Origin: a virus
Length of the DNA: 32,626 nt
Strand: one strand, 5' to 3'
IMG/VR virus record: IMGVR_UViG_3300042325_000157
Span: 1-32,626 of that record
A model generated the notes under the pieces. The model had not been told where the DNA came from. It did not search any database and worked only from the letters and a program-made list of their open reading frames with translations. This document shows positions 11,517-30,462 of this stretch, piece after piece. Both the position numbers and the translations under genes were made by a program. Each line of letters starts with the position of its first letter. The stretch's first letter is position 1.

Positions 11517-12476
11517 ATGGCTACAACTGCAACAATCACTACATCATATGCTGGGCAAGATTCCAAACTATGGGTAAAAGCTGCTTTATTAAGCGGTAAC
11601 ACTTTGGCAAATGGAGGGATGACTATCATTCCTAACATTGCTTACAAAACAACAATGTTTAAAATCGGAACGGACGACATTTTAAAGAACGCTACGTGTG
11701 ATTTTGACGCGACTTCTACTGTTACACTTTCTGAAAGAAGTTTGACATTAGAGCAGTTTCAAGTTAACTTACAATTGTGTAAAAAAGACTTTTTACCAAC
11801 GTGGCAAGCTGAAGAAATGGGATTCAGTGCAAACAAAGTTTTGGCAAAATCATTTGTTGACTACTTGTTAGCTTACATCACTGATAAGGTTGCTTCATCT
11901 GTTGAGGTTTCTATTTGGAGAGGTGCTAACGCAACTGCAGGGCAAATTGATGGTATTTCTACTTTGTTAGCTGCTGACGCTGCTTTACCAACTGCGAACG
12001 AGGTGGCAGGTTCTTCTGCTATTTCTGCTTCTTCTACGGTAATCGCTGAATTAGGTAAAATTGTTGATGCAATTCCAAACACCTTATACGGTTCACCTGA
12101 TTTAAAAATCTACGTTCCACAAGGTGTTATGAAGGCTTACATTAGAGCTTTGGGTGGTTTCTCAGTAGCTGCTACTTCAAACTCAGGTACAGATGCTAAG
12201 GGGACACAATGGTACAATGGTGGTGATTTAACTTTCGATGGTATTCCATTATTCGTTGCTAACGGATTGGCTGCAAACACTGCTATCGCTGCTGAAACTT
12301 CAAACTTGTTCTTCGGTTGCGGTTTATTAAATGATACAAATGAAGTTTCTTTAATTGACATGGCACCAATGGACGGTTCACAAAATGTAAGATTTGTATT
12401 ACGTGCGGGTATGGCAGTTAATTACCATTCAGTATCTGACATCGTAACTTATAACATTCCTAACTCAGCTAACTAA
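11517..12476 (+). CDS. Major capsid protein, HK97-like (319 aa)
   Basis: Size, composition and position after a scaffold candidate and before a strong terminator identify the major capsid protein. It is Ala/Thr/Ser-rich with a typical N-terminal arm, a domain with DLKIYVPQGVMKAYIRALGG (about 196-215) and a C-terminal part with DGSQNVRFVLRAGMAVNYHS, which fit the HK97 fold. Codon use here looks enriched in C- and T-ending codons (AAC, TTC, GCT) relative to neighbours, as expected for a very highly expressed gene. The start is preceded by a run of AAATAAATAAATAAAAA, which is typical of Bacteroidetes start regions. Confidence 0.85.
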   Translation: MATTATITTSYAGQDSKLWVKAALLSGNTLANGGMTIIPNIAYKTTMFKIGTDDILKNATCDFDATSTVTLSERSLTLEQFQVNLQLCKKDFLPTWQAEEMGFSANKVLAKSFVDYLLAYITDKVASSVEVSIWRGANATAGQIDGISTLLAADAALPTANEVAGSSAISASSTVIAELGKIVDAIPNTLYGSPDLKIYVPQGVMKAYIRALGGFSVAATSNSGTDAKGTQWYNGGDLTFDGIPLFVANGLAANTAIAAETSNLFFGCGLLNDTNEVSLIDMAPMDGSQNVRFVLRAGMAVNYHSVSDIVTYNIPNSAN

Positions 12477-19846: not shown

Positions 19847-19873
19847 AAACCGACCTAACAAGTCGGTTTTTTT
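19847..19873 (+). terminator. Rho-independent terminator of the P1 operon
   Basis: AAACCGAC (19847-19854) pairs perfectly with GTCGGTTT (19862-19869) across a 7-base loop, followed by more T. A clean 8-bp stem. Confidence 0.9.
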
Positions 19874-20180: not shown

Positions 20181-20200
20181 TGTTTATATTTGTACCATAA
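20181..20200 (+). promoter_or_regulatory. Bacteroidetes-type promoter P2 of the replication operon
   Basis: TATATTTG at 20185-20192 lies in a 20-bp block that matches the blocks at P1 and P3 at 18 of 20 positions (TGTTTAWATTTGTAMCATAA). No good TTTG box is visible 19 bp upstream, so this promoter may be weaker or depend on a phage factor. Transcription should start close to 20199, just in front of the structured leader. Confidence 0.65.
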
Positions 20201-20204
20201 TTAT

Positions 20205-20288
20205 AGTAGTGGTAGCTATATTAAGAAACTTATTAAATTCCTCGAGTTGAAGTGACTACCACCACGGATACTCGGGGTTTTGTTTTTT
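20205..20288 (+). ncRNA. Structured leader RNA with interleaved helices and U-run (candidate attenuator/riboregulator)
   Basis: Two helices can form. Helix A pairs GTAGTGGTAG (20206-20215) with CTACCACCAC (20256-20265), 9 of 10 positions. Helix B pairs CCTCGAG (20240-20246) with CTCGGGG (20271-20277), 7 pairs with one G-T. Their order is A5'-B5'-A3'-B3', so they form an H-type pseudoknot or compete. Helix B is followed by TTTTGTTTTTT and then the ATG at 20289, which resembles an intrinsic terminator directly before the replication operon. The loops are 24, 9 and 5 nt. I do not recognise a known riboswitch or ribozyme class. A role in attenuation or in translational control of the first gene is inference. 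Confidence 0.65.
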
Positions 20289-21221
20289 ATGAACAATTTT
20301 ACATTTGTAAGGAGGGCAACTCCAAAAGACCTTGACATTAGAAAGTCAAGAATTGAAAAGAGTCAAAACAAAGCAACACTTGACCAACTTCAAAAGATTT
20401 CTGATTTAATTATTAAAGTTCATAATTCATATTATGAAGAGAAATTAAACGAGTTCATTAAAAAAGTTACTTTACAAGAAGAGGAACAAAACTTAAAGTT
20501 TAAAACTAACTCTGACAAGTTTAATAGAATGGTTGAAACGATCACATCAGGAGTTAAACCAACTTTGAAATGTAATTGTATGGGTGATTTAATGTATATT
20601 AATAGCACCTATCAAATGATTGGATGTACAAATTATAGAGATGTTAACTTTGAACATTTTAAAATGTACAAACCACAACAGTATAATAGTGAATGGACGT
20701 TAGAAAAAAAGATTGAAGAGTTCCAAGTTTCTAAACATTATTTATCTAATATTTGCAAAGCATTATCAATAAAAGTAAAGGCTTCTGACTTATATGAATT
20801 TTTAATCTTAAACAAAATTAAACTTCATAGAGAGGATATAAATAGAGAATTCTTTTACACTGCAAGAAATGCTCAAGAGTTATCAAGAAAAAGAGAAGAT
20901 TTAATCTATTCAGAACTTTCTAAAAAATATGATAGGCTTGAAAAACAATTAGTGATAGCTTATCAATATTCTTATGAGAATTTTATTAGGTTTGCAATTC
21001 CTGATGTTATTGTTTTTGATGATAAGAACATAATTGTCTATGAACAAAAGAAATCAATAGAAAACATTAACTTGTTACAAACAGAATTGTATGTTGAATT
21101 GATTAAGCAAATGGTAGATGATTCTTATGATGTACTTGTAAAGTATGTTATTGAAGAAGATTATCCATTTATGCCTGAATTTGTAAATAAACATGAAATA
21201 TTAACCTTAAATACTTTATAA
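20289..21221 (+). CDS. PD-(D/E)XK-like nuclease candidate with Cys motif (310 aa)
   Basis: The first gene after the leader. Residues 237-256 read IPDVIVFDDKNIIVYEQKKS, with Asp239, Glu252 and Lys254 in a PD-x(12)-ExK arrangement typical of the PD-(D/E)XK nuclease fold; helices with charged residues precede it. An earlier Cys cluster (C95, C97, C113: KCNCMGDLMYI and IGCTNY) may bind zinc. The start at 20289 is chosen because an in-frame TTG at 20280 lies in the U-run of the leader. It is coupled to the primase-polymerase gene, so DNA processing during replication is likely. Confidence 0.62.
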   Translation: MNNFTFVRRATPKDLDIRKSRIEKSQNKATLDQLQKISDLIIKVHNSYYEEKLNEFIKKVTLQEEEQNLKFKTNSDKFNRMVETITSGVKPTLKCNCMGDLMYINSTYQMIGCTNYRDVNFEHFKMYKPQQYNSEWTLEKKIEEFQVSKHYLSNICKALSIKVKASDLYEFLILNKIKLHREDINREFFYTARNAQELSRKREDLIYSELSKKYDRLEKQLVIAYQYSYENFIRFAIPDVIVFDDKNIIVYEQKKSIENINLLQTELYVELIKQMVDDSYDVLVKYVIEEDYPFMPEFVNKHEILTLNTL

Positions 21222-23563
21222 TGATGATTGATTTTGCTTATGACCTTCTTAATGAAGGTTTAAACCCCCTGCCCTTAAATAGTAATAAATCACCGAAACT
21301 ACCTAAAGGACATAATTATTTATATGAAAAAGTAAAAGAGGAAGATGTAGAAAAATTGTTTGCTTTTGCCGATAAGATTGGAATTGCTTGCGGTTTAGTT
21401 TCTGATGGGTTTTACTGTATTGATTTCGACTGTCATAACGGAGAGGACGTTGGAGCGATATATTCTGATTTTATAGATATACCTTTTGTTTATTCATTAC
21501 TTGAAGAGGGCAAACTTTCGGTTTATAAAACAATGGGAGGAGGTTTTCACGTTTATTTCAGATATACAAAAGACGTTTTAAAAGGGGATGTTTTCTCATA
21601 TTGGGAAACTAAATCTGTAATGATTGAAATACGTGGAAATGGTCAATATTGCGCTTGCTATCCAAGTGAGGGCTATACTCATTTAACAGGAGTTGAATAT
21701 TTAAAACTAACTGAAATTGAATCTGAAAAAGAATGGTTAGCAATTAAAGATTATGCTCATTCATTTAACAGATACAAAGAGATTGTTAGTAGAACAAAGA
21801 TTTCATCCAACGATAAGAAATGGGCGGAATCATGGAAAAATGATACACCTGACGGAAAATACAATTTAGAGTTTGAAGAAGAGGCAAAAGATTTATTGTA
21901 TAAATCAGGATGGCAATTAAGCACGGTAAAACAAGATAATGTTGAATATTGGACAAGACCAAACAAAGACGCAAAAGATGGTTTTAGTGCAACATTTGGA
22001 CATTTTAAAAGTATGTTTTATATTTTTTCTGAAGATGCAAGTTGTGAACCATTTAAATCAAGACAAGCATATAGCCCATTTAATATACTTACTGAATTAA
22101 AGTACGATGGTGATTGGAAAAGAGCAAAAGACGATTTAAGAAAGCGGTTTAACATGGTCGACAATGAAGAGTTTTGGTCGACAACAGAAAAAGGAAACTA
22201 CTCACTTAATAACAAGCGATTCAAGGATTTTTTAGAGTCAAACGATTTCTTTAAAAACTCACCTAACGAGGGCAGTACATTTGATTTTATACATAAAGAT
22301 GGTATATTCTTAAAAATTGTTTACGAAAAAGACATGAAGGATTTTGTTATTGATTGGGTAGAGCGAAATAAATGTGACGAGGGTGTATTTAATTTAATTA
22401 CAGGAAACTTAAAGTTTTTTAAACGTGACTATTTATCACTATTGAAGTCTAAACCTATCAGAACTTTAAAAGACACGAAAGACAATTGTTTTATTTATTA
22501 TCAAAACTGCATTGTAAACATCACAAAACAAGGTAGGTCAGTTATGAGTTATTCTGAGATTGATTCAGGAGTTTGGAGGGACCAAGTAATTAATAGAGAT
22601 TATTTCCCTATTGACCACCACCCATCAGAATACAGGCAATTTATTTGGAAAATATCAGGGCAAAACGAACAAAAATATAAAGCATTTCAAACTGTTATAG
22701 GTTACTTATTGCACTCTCATAAAACGAATTCTAACAACAAAGCGATAGTATTTAATGATGAAGTAATTTCAGAGAATCCAAACGGTAGAAGTGGAAAAGG
22801 TGTATTTTGGAATGCGTTAAAACATTTGCGTAAAGTTCAATCATTGGATGGTAAAACATTTGATTTTAACAAGTCATTTCCTTATCAGAACGTATCGACA
22901 GATTGCCAGGTATTAGTATTTGATGACGTTAGAAAAAACTTTAATTTTGAGAATCTATTTAGTGTTATTACAGAGGGGATAACAATTGAATATAAAGGAA
23001 AAGACTCCATAAAATTAGACGTTACAGAATCGCCTAAAATTATAATTACAACAAACTACACAATTAACGGAGATTCAGCTTCATTTTTAGCACGTAAATA
23101 CGAGGTTGAAATGAGTAGTTATTTTAATGATAAGTATACACCTTTACATGAATTTGGTCATCAGTTGTTTAATGATTGGGATCAAGAAGAATGGTCACGT
23201 TTTGACAACTACATGATGGAATGTGTGCAAATATATTTAGAGAATGGATTGATTGAAATGCCTTTGTTTAATTTAGCTTATAGAAAATTAGTTAATGAGA
23301 TTTCAGATGAAATGTTGATTTTCTTTAATTCAATTGACAAAAACGAATGGTTAAAAGTAAAAACCGTTTATGATAATTTACTTGACTCATTCCCTGAATT
23401 AAGAAAACGAAATATTTCACAAAACATAATGACAAGGAACCTAAAGAAATTTTGCGAGTTTTACGATTTTAATTTTGATAGCTCGTACAGTGGGGGAATT
23501 GGAAAAATAAAAATAGAAGTGATTGATGAACTAACTAAACCTGAAGAGGAATGTCCATTTTAA
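21221..23563 (+). CDS. Bifunctional primase-polymerase and SF3-type helicase (780 aa)
   Basis: The N-terminal AEP/prim-pol-like domain shows a DFDCHNGE motif (68-75) and GGGFHVYF (106-113), matching the 'DxD' and 'sxH' signatures of archaeo-eukaryotic primases. From about residue 500 a D5/SF3-like helicase follows, with Walker A GRSGKG (about 522-527), Walker B VLVFDDV (about 564-570) and a sensor-like IIITTNY (about 607-613). The two domains prime and unwind DNA at the fork. No separate DNA polymerase gene is visible, so the host replisome or this protein must extend the strands. It ends 13 bp inside the next helicase gene. Confidence 0.88.
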   Translation: MMIDFAYDLLNEGLNPLPLNSNKSPKLPKGHNYLYEKVKEEDVEKLFAFADKIGIACGLVSDGFYCIDFDCHNGEDVGAIYSDFIDIPFVYSLLEEGKLSVYKTMGGGFHVYFRYTKDVLKGDVFSYWETKSVMIEIRGNGQYCACYPSEGYTHLTGVEYLKLTEIESEKEWLAIKDYAHSFNRYKEIVSRTKISSNDKKWAESWKNDTPDGKYNLEFEEEAKDLLYKSGWQLSTVKQDNVEYWTRPNKDAKDGFSATFGHFKSMFYIFSEDASCEPFKSRQAYSPFNILTELKYDGDWKRAKDDLRKRFNMVDNEEFWSTTEKGNYSLNNKRFKDFLESNDFFKNSPNEGSTFDFIHKDGIFLKIVYEKDMKDFVIDWVERNKCDEGVFNLITGNLKFFKRDYLSLLKSKPIRTLKDTKDNCFIYYQNCIVNITKQGRSVMSYSEIDSGVWRDQVINRDYFPIDHHPSEYRQFIWKISGQNEQKYKAFQTVIGYLLHSHKTNSNNKAIVFNDEVISENPNGRSGKGVFWNALKHLRKVQSLDGKTFDFNKSFPYQNVSTDCQVLVFDDVRKNFNFENLFSVITEGITIEYKGKDSIKLDVTESPKIIITTNYTINGDSASFLARKYEVEMSSYFNDKYTPLHEFGHQLFNDWDQEEWSRFDNYMMECVQIYLENGLIEMPLFNLAYRKLVNEISDEMLIFFNSIDKNEWLKVKTVYDNLLDSFPELRKRNISQNIMTRNLKKFCEFYDFNFDSSYSGGIGKIKIEVIDELTKPEEECPF

Positions 23564-24756
23564 GAGATTACCAAACTGAGATATCGCACAAAGCGAATAT
23601 TATATTAAAAGAAAAGCGAATAGTTTACCTAATGATGCAAGTACGTACAGGAAAAACCTTGACAGCTTTAGAAACTGCCAAACTATACGGAGCTAACAAC
23701 GTCCTGTTCTTAACGAAAAAAAAGGCTATAAGCTCAATTGAAAGCGATTACAGTAACTTTGGTTATAAGTTTAATCTAACCGTTACAAACGATGAGCAGT
23801 TAGCTAATATCGAAGGAAACTTTGATTTAATAATCCATGACGAGCATCACAGATTCGGAGCATTCCCAAAACCATCAAAACGAGTAAAAGAATTTAAACT
23901 TAAGTTTTCACGTGTACCAATGATTTTTTTAAGTGGTACACCAGCGTCCGAAAGTTATTCTCAAATGTACCACCAATTTTGGGTTAGTTCTTATTCTCCA
24001 TTCAAAGATGTTAATTTTTACAAGTGGTCAAAGACATTCGTAACCGTGAAACAAAAGAACATGGGTTATGCAATGATTAACGACTATTCAGATGCAAAAA
24101 TTGCATTGATTGACGAAGTAATACAACCGTACATTATTAAGTTTACTCAAGAACAAAGCGGATTTGAAAGCAAAGTAAAAGAACACGTGATTTATTACCC
24201 TACATTATGCAGAAACTTAATAGAACGTTTAGAAAAAGACTTAATAATTGAGGGTAAAGAAAACGTAATATTAGCAGATTCGGGAGCAAAATTAATGCAG
24301 AAAGTTCACCAATTAGAGAATGGAACTATTAAGTTTGAGTCGGGCAAATCAATGATTCTTGACACTCGCAAAGCTGAATTTATTAGAGACTACTTTGAGG
24401 GTAAAAAGTTAGCTATATTTTACTATTACGTGGAGGAGCTTGAATTGTTAAAATTAGTTTTCCCTAACTCTACGAGTGATTTAAATGAGTTTAACACAAC
24501 AGGTAAACATTACATTGGACAACAATATTCTAGTGCATTAGGTGTGAATTTAAGTAAGGCTCATTGCTTAGTATTTTACAACTTTGGTTTCTCAGGAACA
24601 ATGTTTATTCAAGCAATTGACAGGCTAACGACTAAAGAGCGAAAAGAAAACGATGTGTTTTTTATATTTGGAAAAGATTCGTTGACCGAAAAGATTTATA
24701 AAACAGTATCACAAAAGAAAAACTTTACACTTAAACAATATGTTAAAAATAACTAA
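23551..24756 (+). CDS. Superfamily 2 DNA helicase, DEAD/DEAH-like (401 aa)
   Basis: Motif I VRTGKT (31-36), motif II DEHH (97-100), motif III SGTPA (128-132) and a motif VI-like QAIDRLTTKER (354-364) identify an SF2 helicase. The first residues (LRDYQTE) give the 'Q-motif'-like start typical of the group. ATP-driven unwinding or branch migration during replication or recombination is expected. The ATG at 23551 overlaps the end of the primase gene by 13 bp, and the stop overlaps the methyltransferase gene by 17 bp. It is a compact version of the family. Confidence 0.88.
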   Translation: MSILRDYQTEISHKANIILKEKRIVYLMMQVRTGKTLTALETAKLYGANNVLFLTKKKAISSIESDYSNFGYKFNLTVTNDEQLANIEGNFDLIIHDEHHRFGAFPKPSKRVKEFKLKFSRVPMIFLSGTPASESYSQMYHQFWVSSYSPFKDVNFYKWSKTFVTVKQKNMGYAMINDYSDAKIALIDEVIQPYIIKFTQEQSGFESKVKEHVIYYPTLCRNLIERLEKDLIIEGKENVILADSGAKLMQKVHQLENGTIKFESGKSMILDTRKAEFIRDYFEGKKLAIFYYYVEELELLKLVFPNSTSDLNEFNTTGKHYIGQQYSSALGVNLSKAHCLVFYNFGFSGTMFIQAIDRLTTKERKENDVFFIFGKDSLTEKIYKTVSQKKNFTLKQYVKNN

Positions 24757-25351
24757 CGAAGACAACATGGAGCTTATGGCTCGTTACCCTGATAACTATT
24801 TTGATTTAGCAATAGTTGACCCTCCTTATGGGATTGATATTGCAAAATGGGATAGTATTGATTTAAAACCAAGTGAAGAATATTTTAAAGAATTATTTAG
24901 AGTCAGTAAAAAGCAAATTATTTGGGGTGGTAATTACTTTAACCTTCCTCACTCTGAAGGTTGGATTTGTTGGGACAAAACATTTAAGTACAACCAAAAA
25001 TTAGCAGTTGGTCATTTTGAATTAGCTTGGTCAAATTTAGATATTAAACATTCATTTATAAGATTTACAAGTTGTGGAAATTTTCAAGGATTTGAAAACC
25101 CAAAAGCAAATTATGAGAAGAAAAAATCATTTCACCCAACTTCAAAACCTATTGAAATTTATAAATTTTGTTTAAAAAATTACGCAAAAGAAAACGATAA
25201 AATACTCGACACGCATTTAGGCTCAGGAAGTATTGCGATAGCTTGTCACGATTACGGATTTGATTTGACAGCTTGTGAATTAGATAAAGAGTATTTCGAT
25301 AAAGCAATGCAACGTATTAATAACCATACAGCACAACAAAAACTATTCTAA
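24740..25351 (+). CDS. DNA methyltransferase, DPPY type (203 aa)
   Basis: Motif IV DPPY at residues 27-30, a HPTSKP block (132-137) and motif I-like DTHLGSGS (157-164) are in the order of the beta-class N6-adenine/N4-cytosine methyltransferases. No cognate restriction enzyme gene is nearby, so this is an orphan enzyme. It probably protects phage DNA from host restriction or marks it for replication or packaging. The recognition site cannot be told from the sequence. The gene begins within the end of the helicase gene. Confidence 0.88.
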   Translation: MLKITNEDNMELMARYPDNYFDLAIVDPPYGIDIAKWDSIDLKPSEEYFKELFRVSKKQIIWGGNYFNLPHSEGWICWDKTFKYNQKLAVGHFELAWSNLDIKHSFIRFTSCGNFQGFENPKANYEKKKSFHPTSKPIEIYKFCLKNYAKENDKILDTHLGSGSIAIACHDYGFDLTACELDKEYFDKAMQRINNHTAQQKLF

Positions 25352-29693: not shown

Positions 29694-29978
29694 ATGGAAA
29701 GAGAAATAATTAATTGGGCAAAGGCTCGTAAGTTAGACAACCCCGACAATAAGTTTCAACAGCTTGCAAAGGTCATGGAAGAGGTTGGAGAGCTATCCTC
29801 TGCAATACTAAAGCGAGATATTTCAGAAACGATTGACGCCCTTGGAGATACTTACATCACACTTGTAATATTAGCTAATCAAATGGGCTACTCATTAGAA
29901 GATTGTGCAAAGAGAGCCTTTAAAGTTATTGAATACCGAAAAGGTAAAACCGAAAACGGAACGTTTATCAAAGAGTAG
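29694..29978 (+). CDS. MazG-like nucleotide pyrophosphohydrolase (94 aa)
   Basis: From the ATG at 29694, residues 22-52 hold the family signature: QQLAKVMEEVGELSSAILKR with EEVGE at 29-33 and ETIDALGD at 45-52, giving the acidic metal site (E30, E33, D48 or D52). Such enzymes cleave (d)NTPs or related nucleotides, and in phages may clean the nucleotide pool or act on alarmones. It starts 2 bp after the previous stop and abuts the sigma-like gene. Confidence 0.85.
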   Translation: MEREIINWAKARKLDNPDNKFQQLAKVMEEVGELSSAILKRDISETIDALGDTYITLVILANQMGYSLEDCAKRAFKVIEYRKGKTENGTFIKE

Positions 29979-29979
29979 T

Positions 29980-30462
29980 ATGAATTTAAAAGATATCGCG
30001 CAGTATCACAACGAATGGGTACGAATTGTTAAACGATTTGGAGCTAAAACAGATGCAGAAGACATTGTTCAAGATATGTATCTAAGGTTTCACAAGTATG
30101 GCAAAGGTCAGGTAGTAACCAAATCATTCATATGGATTATGCTGCGTAACTCTTTTTACGATTCATGCAAGCGTAATGTTTCAACAGTAGACATTGACCT
30201 TCTGGTTGATCTATCAGAGGACGAAAACAACAAAACGTACGAAATAGAGTTATACTATCAGAGTGTTGAAAATGAAATAAAATCATGGGAGTGGTTCGAC
30301 CAACAACTATTTTTATTATATTTACGAAGCGGAAAGTCAATGCGTGAACTTGAAAAGGAAACTAAGATAAGTTTAACTTCTATTTTTCACACTATTAAAA
30401 AATGTAAACGGAAATTAAAGTTATGGCAAAAAGAATATCAAAAGGATTTGGAGATACAGTAG
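29980..30462 (+). CDS. Sigma-70-like (ECF-type) factor (160 aa)
   Basis: The ATG at 29980 comes 1 bp after the previous stop; a frame starting at 29905 would lie inside the MazG-like gene. Residues 1-60 contain the region 2 pattern (TDAEDIVQDMYLRFHKYGKG). The C-terminus has a region 4 helix-turn-helix (LFLLYLRSGKSMRELEKETK, then ISLTSIFHTIKKCKRKLK). Only about 160 residues, like ECF sigma factors or phage transcription regulators. The terminase genes follow, so control of late transcription is likely, perhaps for promoters that I could not identify. It overlaps the next gene by 40 bp. Confidence 0.8.
   Translation: MNLKDIAQYHNEWVRIVKRFGAKTDAEDIVQDMYLRFHKYGKGQVVTKSFIWIMLRNSFYDSCKRNVSTVDIDLLVDLSEDENNKTYEIELYYQSVENEIKSWEWFDQQLFLLYLRSGKSMRELEKETKISLTSIFHTIKKCKRKLKLWQKEYQKDLEIQ

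Follow-up and report, generated by a model that had tools for sequence, protein, structure and literature searches.

We have found an unnamed, strongly covarying RNA family that stands at early-gene starts in many phages of Bacteroidota. Comparative sequence evidence establishes its kissing-hairpin architecture, in which the loop sequence (A1) of a 5' hairpin (P1) pairs with the loop sequence (A2) of a terminator-type hairpin (stem B with an inner stem, P3), behind which come a U-run and the start codon. We read the leader, with moderate confidence, as an attenuator of transcription that acts in cis from the outermost 5' end of early phage mRNAs, and it may be an example of attenuation ruled by a kissing loop instead of competing stems. 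Little is known of gene regulation in Bacteroidota phages. The loops, which vary freely yet stay self-complementary, amount to a naturally occurring collection of RNA-RNA switch parts that can be exchanged for one another, and the cultured virulent Flavobacterium phages among the carriers make tests of the mechanism practical.

Genomic setting and promoter

The window, which is the whole stretch of DNA analysed (32,626 nucleotides), makes up a virus record of 32.6 kb. Among its genes are portal, terminase, tape measure, primase-polymerase, helicase, Erf and Gam-like genes; no integrase or repressor was seen among the window proteins scanned. The leader precedes an operon on the + strand, the first gene of which (20289-21221, ATG at 20289) encodes a protein of 310 aa with no assigned function. 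A primase-polymerase/D5-like primase-helicase gene (21221-23563), a ResIII-type helicase gene (23551-24756) and a DNA methyltransferase gene (24740-25351) follow on the same strand. The gene block upstream is closed by an ordinary intrinsic terminator (19847-19869), and about 330 bp of A/T-rich DNA lie between it and the leader promoter. Further downstream, the stretch 29905-30462 weakly resembles sigma factors of phage RNA polymerase (phrog_1740), which suggests that the phage may have its own late transcription.

The promoter was recognized by its -7 element, TATATTTG at 20185-20192 of the + strand, which matches the TAnnTTTG consensus of the Bacteroidota sigma factor, sigma-ABfr. Because transcripts of F. 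johnsoniae begin 4-5 nt past this element (PMC6847099), the leader RNA is predicted to start at about 20197, in agreement with the proposal of an earlier note on this DNA that the element forms the 5' end of the mRNA. The distance from TTTG to P1 is likewise mostly 4-5 nt in the 48 promoter-linked members of the family.

Anatomy of the window leader

The earlier note had described two interlocking helices, A (20206-20215/20256-20265) and B (20240-20246/20271-20277), that could form a pseudoknot or two alternative states. Helix B is real, with 7 of 7 positions paired, and extends to 20247/20270 for a total of 8 bp. Helix A also exists (9 of 10 positions paired, with a mismatch at A208/C263), but only a 7-bp core, 20209-20215/20256-20262, is conserved as such. 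The outer bases of helix A are parts of stems P1 and P3, and helix A is therefore a loop-loop kiss of two hairpins and not a plain H-type pseudoknot.

Read from its 5' end along the + strand, the leader opens with P1 (20202-20220), whose stem TATAG/CTATA (20202-20206/20216-20220) closes a 9-nt loop and is shifted by 1 nt relative to the register of its class; P1 stems covary in relatives. The P1 loop holds A1, GTGGTAG (20209-20215). A single-stranded, A/U-rich linker (20221-20239) joins this hairpin to the 5' strand of the terminator-type stem, B1 (CCTCGAGT, 20240-20247). Within the second hairpin, the inner stem P3 (GTG/CAC, 20252-20254/20263-20265) closes the loop that contains A2, CTACCAC (20256-20262), and the 3' strand B2 (ACTCGGGG, 20270-20277) leads directly into the U-run TTTTGTTTTTT (20278-20288). 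As A1 lies in the P1 loop and A2 in the P3-closed terminator loop, the helix that they form is a kissing-loop helix. The interlocking seen previously stands. Mutually exclusive states are not required by the anatomy, since on paper the kiss can form together with the terminator stem.

A terminator-like hairpin just before the start codon had also been proposed, and stem B has the expected make-up of an intrinsic terminator: 8 bp, 5 of them G-C/C-G pairs, with TTTTGTTTTTT immediately behind and ATG 20289 next. A simple terminator scanner did not list this hairpin because its loop exceeds 8 nt. Nested thermodynamic folding of the leader region was unremarkable (z = -1.55).

Covariation in relatives

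Relatives were fetched through the proteins encoded downstream of the leader. The leader sequence is unchanged in the 6 closest, near-identical contigs. Homologues of the 310-aa gene at 72-78% and about 34% identity are preceded by wholly different leader sequences that keep the same interleaved pairing. The A1/A2 pairs in these leaders include AGATCTCA/TGAGATCT, GATCTGAC/GTCAGATC, GGCTTCAC/GTGAAGCC, GTCTTCAC/GTGAAGAC and CATCCACT/AGTGGATG, and the clearest kissing hairpins are found in L017, with GGTT[GATACAG]AACC and GGG[CTGTATC]CCC. Pairing was present in all leaders that had been located solely by the homologous downstream gene; these were chosen by gene position only and therefore provide an unbiased test of the pairing. 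Two classes of leader were distinguished, one with short loops (7-9 nt, the window included) and one with long loops (14 nt), in which A1 occupies the 5' side of the loop and 6 nt are free. Complementarity between A1 and A2 is exact over 7-9 nt across the family.

Compensatory changes were counted in two alignments, A6 (10 sequences) and A7 (8 sequences, window included). The proportion of paired cells was 99.2% in A6 and 94.7% in A7, and both sides had changed in 18 of 26 and 12 of 22 pairs, respectively. The compensatory pairs of A6 include 6/8 in the kissing helix and 5/5 in P3 (0/500 shuffles). The kissing helix is 100% paired in both alignments, as is P3, every pair of which is compensatory in both. 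No shuffle reached the pairing percentages of A6 or A7, and sliding the partners abolished the signal. Conservation of the pairings in relatives was the refutation test set beforehand, and it came out in favour of the element. Since the members of A6 and A7 were picked partly by a scanner that demands kissing pairing, the counts for P1, P3 and B and the leaders found by position or by model are the cleaner evidence. MAFFT misaligned L034 and parts of stem B in A7, which lowered the counts slightly.

The same bias affects an observation that would fit a very different explanation, namely that A1, A2 and the A1 copy of some phages are repeated half-sites for a repressor that binds DNA with a specificity drifting from phage to phage. 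All changes in the kissing pairs are Watson-Crick double changes, which inverted DNA repeats would also show, but the scanner requires Watson-Crick kisses. A1 and A2 lie exactly in the loops of independently covarying stems, and stem B uses G-U pairs and runs into a U-run, which makes DNA operators very improbable.

Covariance models were built on the nested stems only, with the kiss left out. All 9 model-found leaders tested hold a 7-8 nt complement, compared with 5.9% of shuffled leaders (a chance of 0.059 per leader); the nine are not all independent, one of them nearly duplicating the window. The complete architecture was also captured in a descriptor, which was drawn up once the first relatives were known and gave the window element a score of 27.4. 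When 129 loci (1.07 Mb) were scanned with it, 93 real matches (74 with promoter) and 6 shuffled ones (1 with promoter) scored at least 26, and 62 real and 0 shuffled matches scored at least 28; about 0.03 promoter-linked elements are expected by chance in DNA the size of the window. A U-run (at least 5 T in 8) was present in 48/48 promoter-linked elements. Taken together, the leader fold and the RNA family are very likely real. Matches at L089:3022-3200 and L094:3211-3390 proved false, as these non-coding regions hold a long tandem duplication (unit of about 80-90 nt) with an inverted arm, and those in Leef_1 and phiST were rejected as long repeats or as lying inside genes.

The earlier note knew of no named class with this pattern, and the family is indeed without a name: Rfam 15, including C4 and riboswitches, gave 0 matches at the gathering score (best sub-threshold E of at least 2), and no description of the leader was found in the open-licence literature. 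A compact pseudoknot-like fold before a terminator recalls H-type pseudoknot riboswitches, in which a pseudoknotted leader also stands ahead of a U-run. In contrast to these, the family has no conserved aptamer or ligand core, A1/A2 and the stems differ completely between classes, and the unrelated downstream genes share no metabolism. Together with the missing Rfam riboswitch match, this leaves a metabolite riboswitch as the least probable of the explanations considered.

Distribution and downstream genes

About 45 distinct elements were found in Bacteroidota phages, at 1-3 per genome and with differing self-complementary loops, and up to 3 were counted in each of twenty related phage records, again with different loops. 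Within one genome, 0/16 loop pairs share 5 nt, versus 30/309 between genomes, a difference that hints at trans specificity but is not significant. The elements stand directly after a TAnnTTTG promoter and directly before an early gene. The genes behind them encode primases, ResIII-type helicases, NUMOD4-HNH endonucleases, a DUF7666 protein and small ORFs of no assigned function, and the gene downstream in L110 resembles a GIY-YIG endonuclease, as judged by eye. The tie to replication genes drawn previously is accordingly not exclusive, as helicases, endonucleases and small early ORFs also have the leader in front of them.

Among cultured phages, Flavobacterium phage elemoE_6-9C has a leader before its replication gene cluster, and Flavobacterium phage mumin9-1, from a group of isolates that are described in the literature as virulent (PMC7077304), has leaders before endonuclease gp034 and before gp037/helicase gp038, located near 11684 and 12722. 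Olleya phage Harreka_1 is a further carrier, and Bacteroides phage BS-TP2 probably is. The scanner had no match in the phage records P12024L/S, RAP44 and BT-TP2, and a DNA-level search of phage records returned no relatives. Searches with model R2 gave no match in 295 bacterial genomes from the class to which G024 belongs, a weak negative given strict filters and no positive control, or, under the same filters and likewise with no positive control, in 7 genomes with related primases.

Proposed mode of action

The 5' position, the U-run in all members and the adjacent start codon make an attenuator the simplest reading, and on this comparative evidence regulated premature termination is likely. 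A2, on emerging from RNA polymerase, would pair with A1 of the prefolded 5' hairpin to give a compact kissing fold. Stem B and the U-run would end part of the transcripts as an RNA of ~85 nt, and on the remainder the polymerase would continue into the gene. Output would depend on what A2 pairs with: A2 bound to A1 would be permissive, and A2 left unpaired or bound to another site (an A1 copy directly before the start codon in a few phages) would reduce expression. The trigger may lie in the kinetics of the polymerase, in a protein or in short RNA that accumulates and acts in trans. An attenuator of this kind would cap early genes that stand under strong host-type promoters, and the leader probably limits the amount of gene product made.

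A classical two-state switch is not evident, because no conserved anti-terminator helix competing with B was found among the relatives. An attenuator with such a competing stem was rejected, as B1 and B2 have no conserved alternative partner. The exact A1 7-mer recurs at most 16 nt before the ATG in L012, L017 and L036 (permutation mean 0.045, 0/20000), and the repeat, placed after the U-run and directly before the start codon, is seen at L012:3108, L017:3499 and L036:3044 and also in L164 and L172 (for example, GATACAGTATGG). Weaker copies occur in L087, L177 and G020, and the window and most members have none. In the phages with a copy, A2 could mask the start codon whenever it is not bound by A1, which suggests that the A1:A2 kiss is the permissive state.

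Two features suggest that the pairing takes place inside a single RNA: the distance from A1 to B1 is constant (23-27 nt in 33/48 elements across both classes), and the linkers just span the stacked helices. Short-loop linkers have a contour of about 90-126 A and just cover a stacked length of 76-95 A, by a rough estimate that ignores bending. A shorter linker goes with 6 extra nt in loop 1, and the linkers of some long-loop members are not long enough for the fold to be straight.

Cis action is favoured over action in trans, for which the closest model is antisense feedback like that of P4 CI RNA or P1/P7 C4. Under this doubtful alternative, the terminated RNA of ~85 nt would expose A2, which would pair with A1, and with start-codon copies, on other transcripts of the same operon and so exert operon-specific negative feedback or immunity. 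The layout A1 - A2 - (A1 copy) of L012, L017 and L036 equals the seqA - CI - seqC layout of the phage P4 leader (PMC4825925), the 7-8 nt loops are exactly complementary, and loops differ per element within genomes. However, A2 already has a cis partner in the same RNA, the conserved A1-to-B1 spacing favours cis, and trans targets of A2 inside the window were rejected, as the A1 7-mer occurs once on the + strand with no further copy in its sense. In P4, as here, a leader hairpin before replication genes pairs with complementary sites on either side of it within that leader. P4 CI, however, belongs to a temperate satellite and is an immunity RNA that is processed and acts in trans, whereas here the hairpin itself is the terminator, and the downstream site is confined to few members. 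Of the two sites that mark P4 CI and C4, the window has the upstream one and lacks the downstream copy. Nor was a temperate lifestyle with immunity apparent: lysogeny genes were not found, the window proteins scanned included neither an integrase nor a repressor, and the carrier mumin9-1 is virulent (PMC7077304). Virulent carriers do not fit lysogenic immunity, and the downstream site is missing from most members.

The C4 antisense RNA of P1/P7 is also a short 5' leader RNA that pairs with a translation start, which here would apply only to members with an A1 copy; the present family differs in its single 7-9 nt kiss of two hairpin loops, its several copies per genome and its lack of an Rfam match. 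Fully complementary 7-nt hairpin loops are shared with ColE1 RNAI/RNAII-type systems, but here both loops are on one transcript. Unlike type III toxin-antitoxin loci (ToxI), the leader is a single element, and the genes behind it encode primases, helicases, HNH endonucleases or proteins of no assigned function, with no ToxN-like gene. A tentative idea, to which we give a low probability, is that the loops serve as a self-sensing code in which each early operon has a private loop pair; an ended leader would diffuse, kiss and shut only that operon. Were this true, one virulent phage would run several orthogonal RNA feedback circuits.

It is unlikely that the leader is instead a platform for a phage or host protein or RNA polymerase, loaded at the 5' end as in HK022 put so that the polymerase ignores terminators. 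Put, too, consists of two hairpins and lies at the 5' end of early phage transcripts. The position of the leader at the 5' ends of several early operons fits this reading, and its common fold with free loop sequence is what shape recognition would predict. Against this, few unpaired bases are conserved across both classes, the fold holds its own terminator, with a U-run on hairpin 2 that sets it apart from put, and a dedicated antiterminator protein was not identified in the window. Put is not known to have kissing loops.

Additional features of the family

One sub-class of leaders, with long loops and exemplified by L021:366-400, has a short in-frame ATG...stop (MNLEVKPQRI-like) that runs across the A2 loop; the other leaders lack it. 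A leader peptide or uORF was rejected as an explanation, as this ATG belongs to the long-loop class (L021-like) and is found neither in the window nor in the short-loop class. The linker between the kissing hairpins contains an extra hairpin, GGTTAACTTAACC, at L112:2466-2564 and L097:2130-2226. Homing-type endonucleases often stand directly behind the leader (L139:966, L153:3997, L172:10675, L011 at about 7630, L110 at about 6300 and L179:11765), as if leader and endonuclease formed one mobile cassette. Finally, the host label of record OQ791282 (Shigella phage Henu10) may be wrong: in coordinates and identity, its terminase match equals the one of Riemerella phage vB_RanS_PT15.
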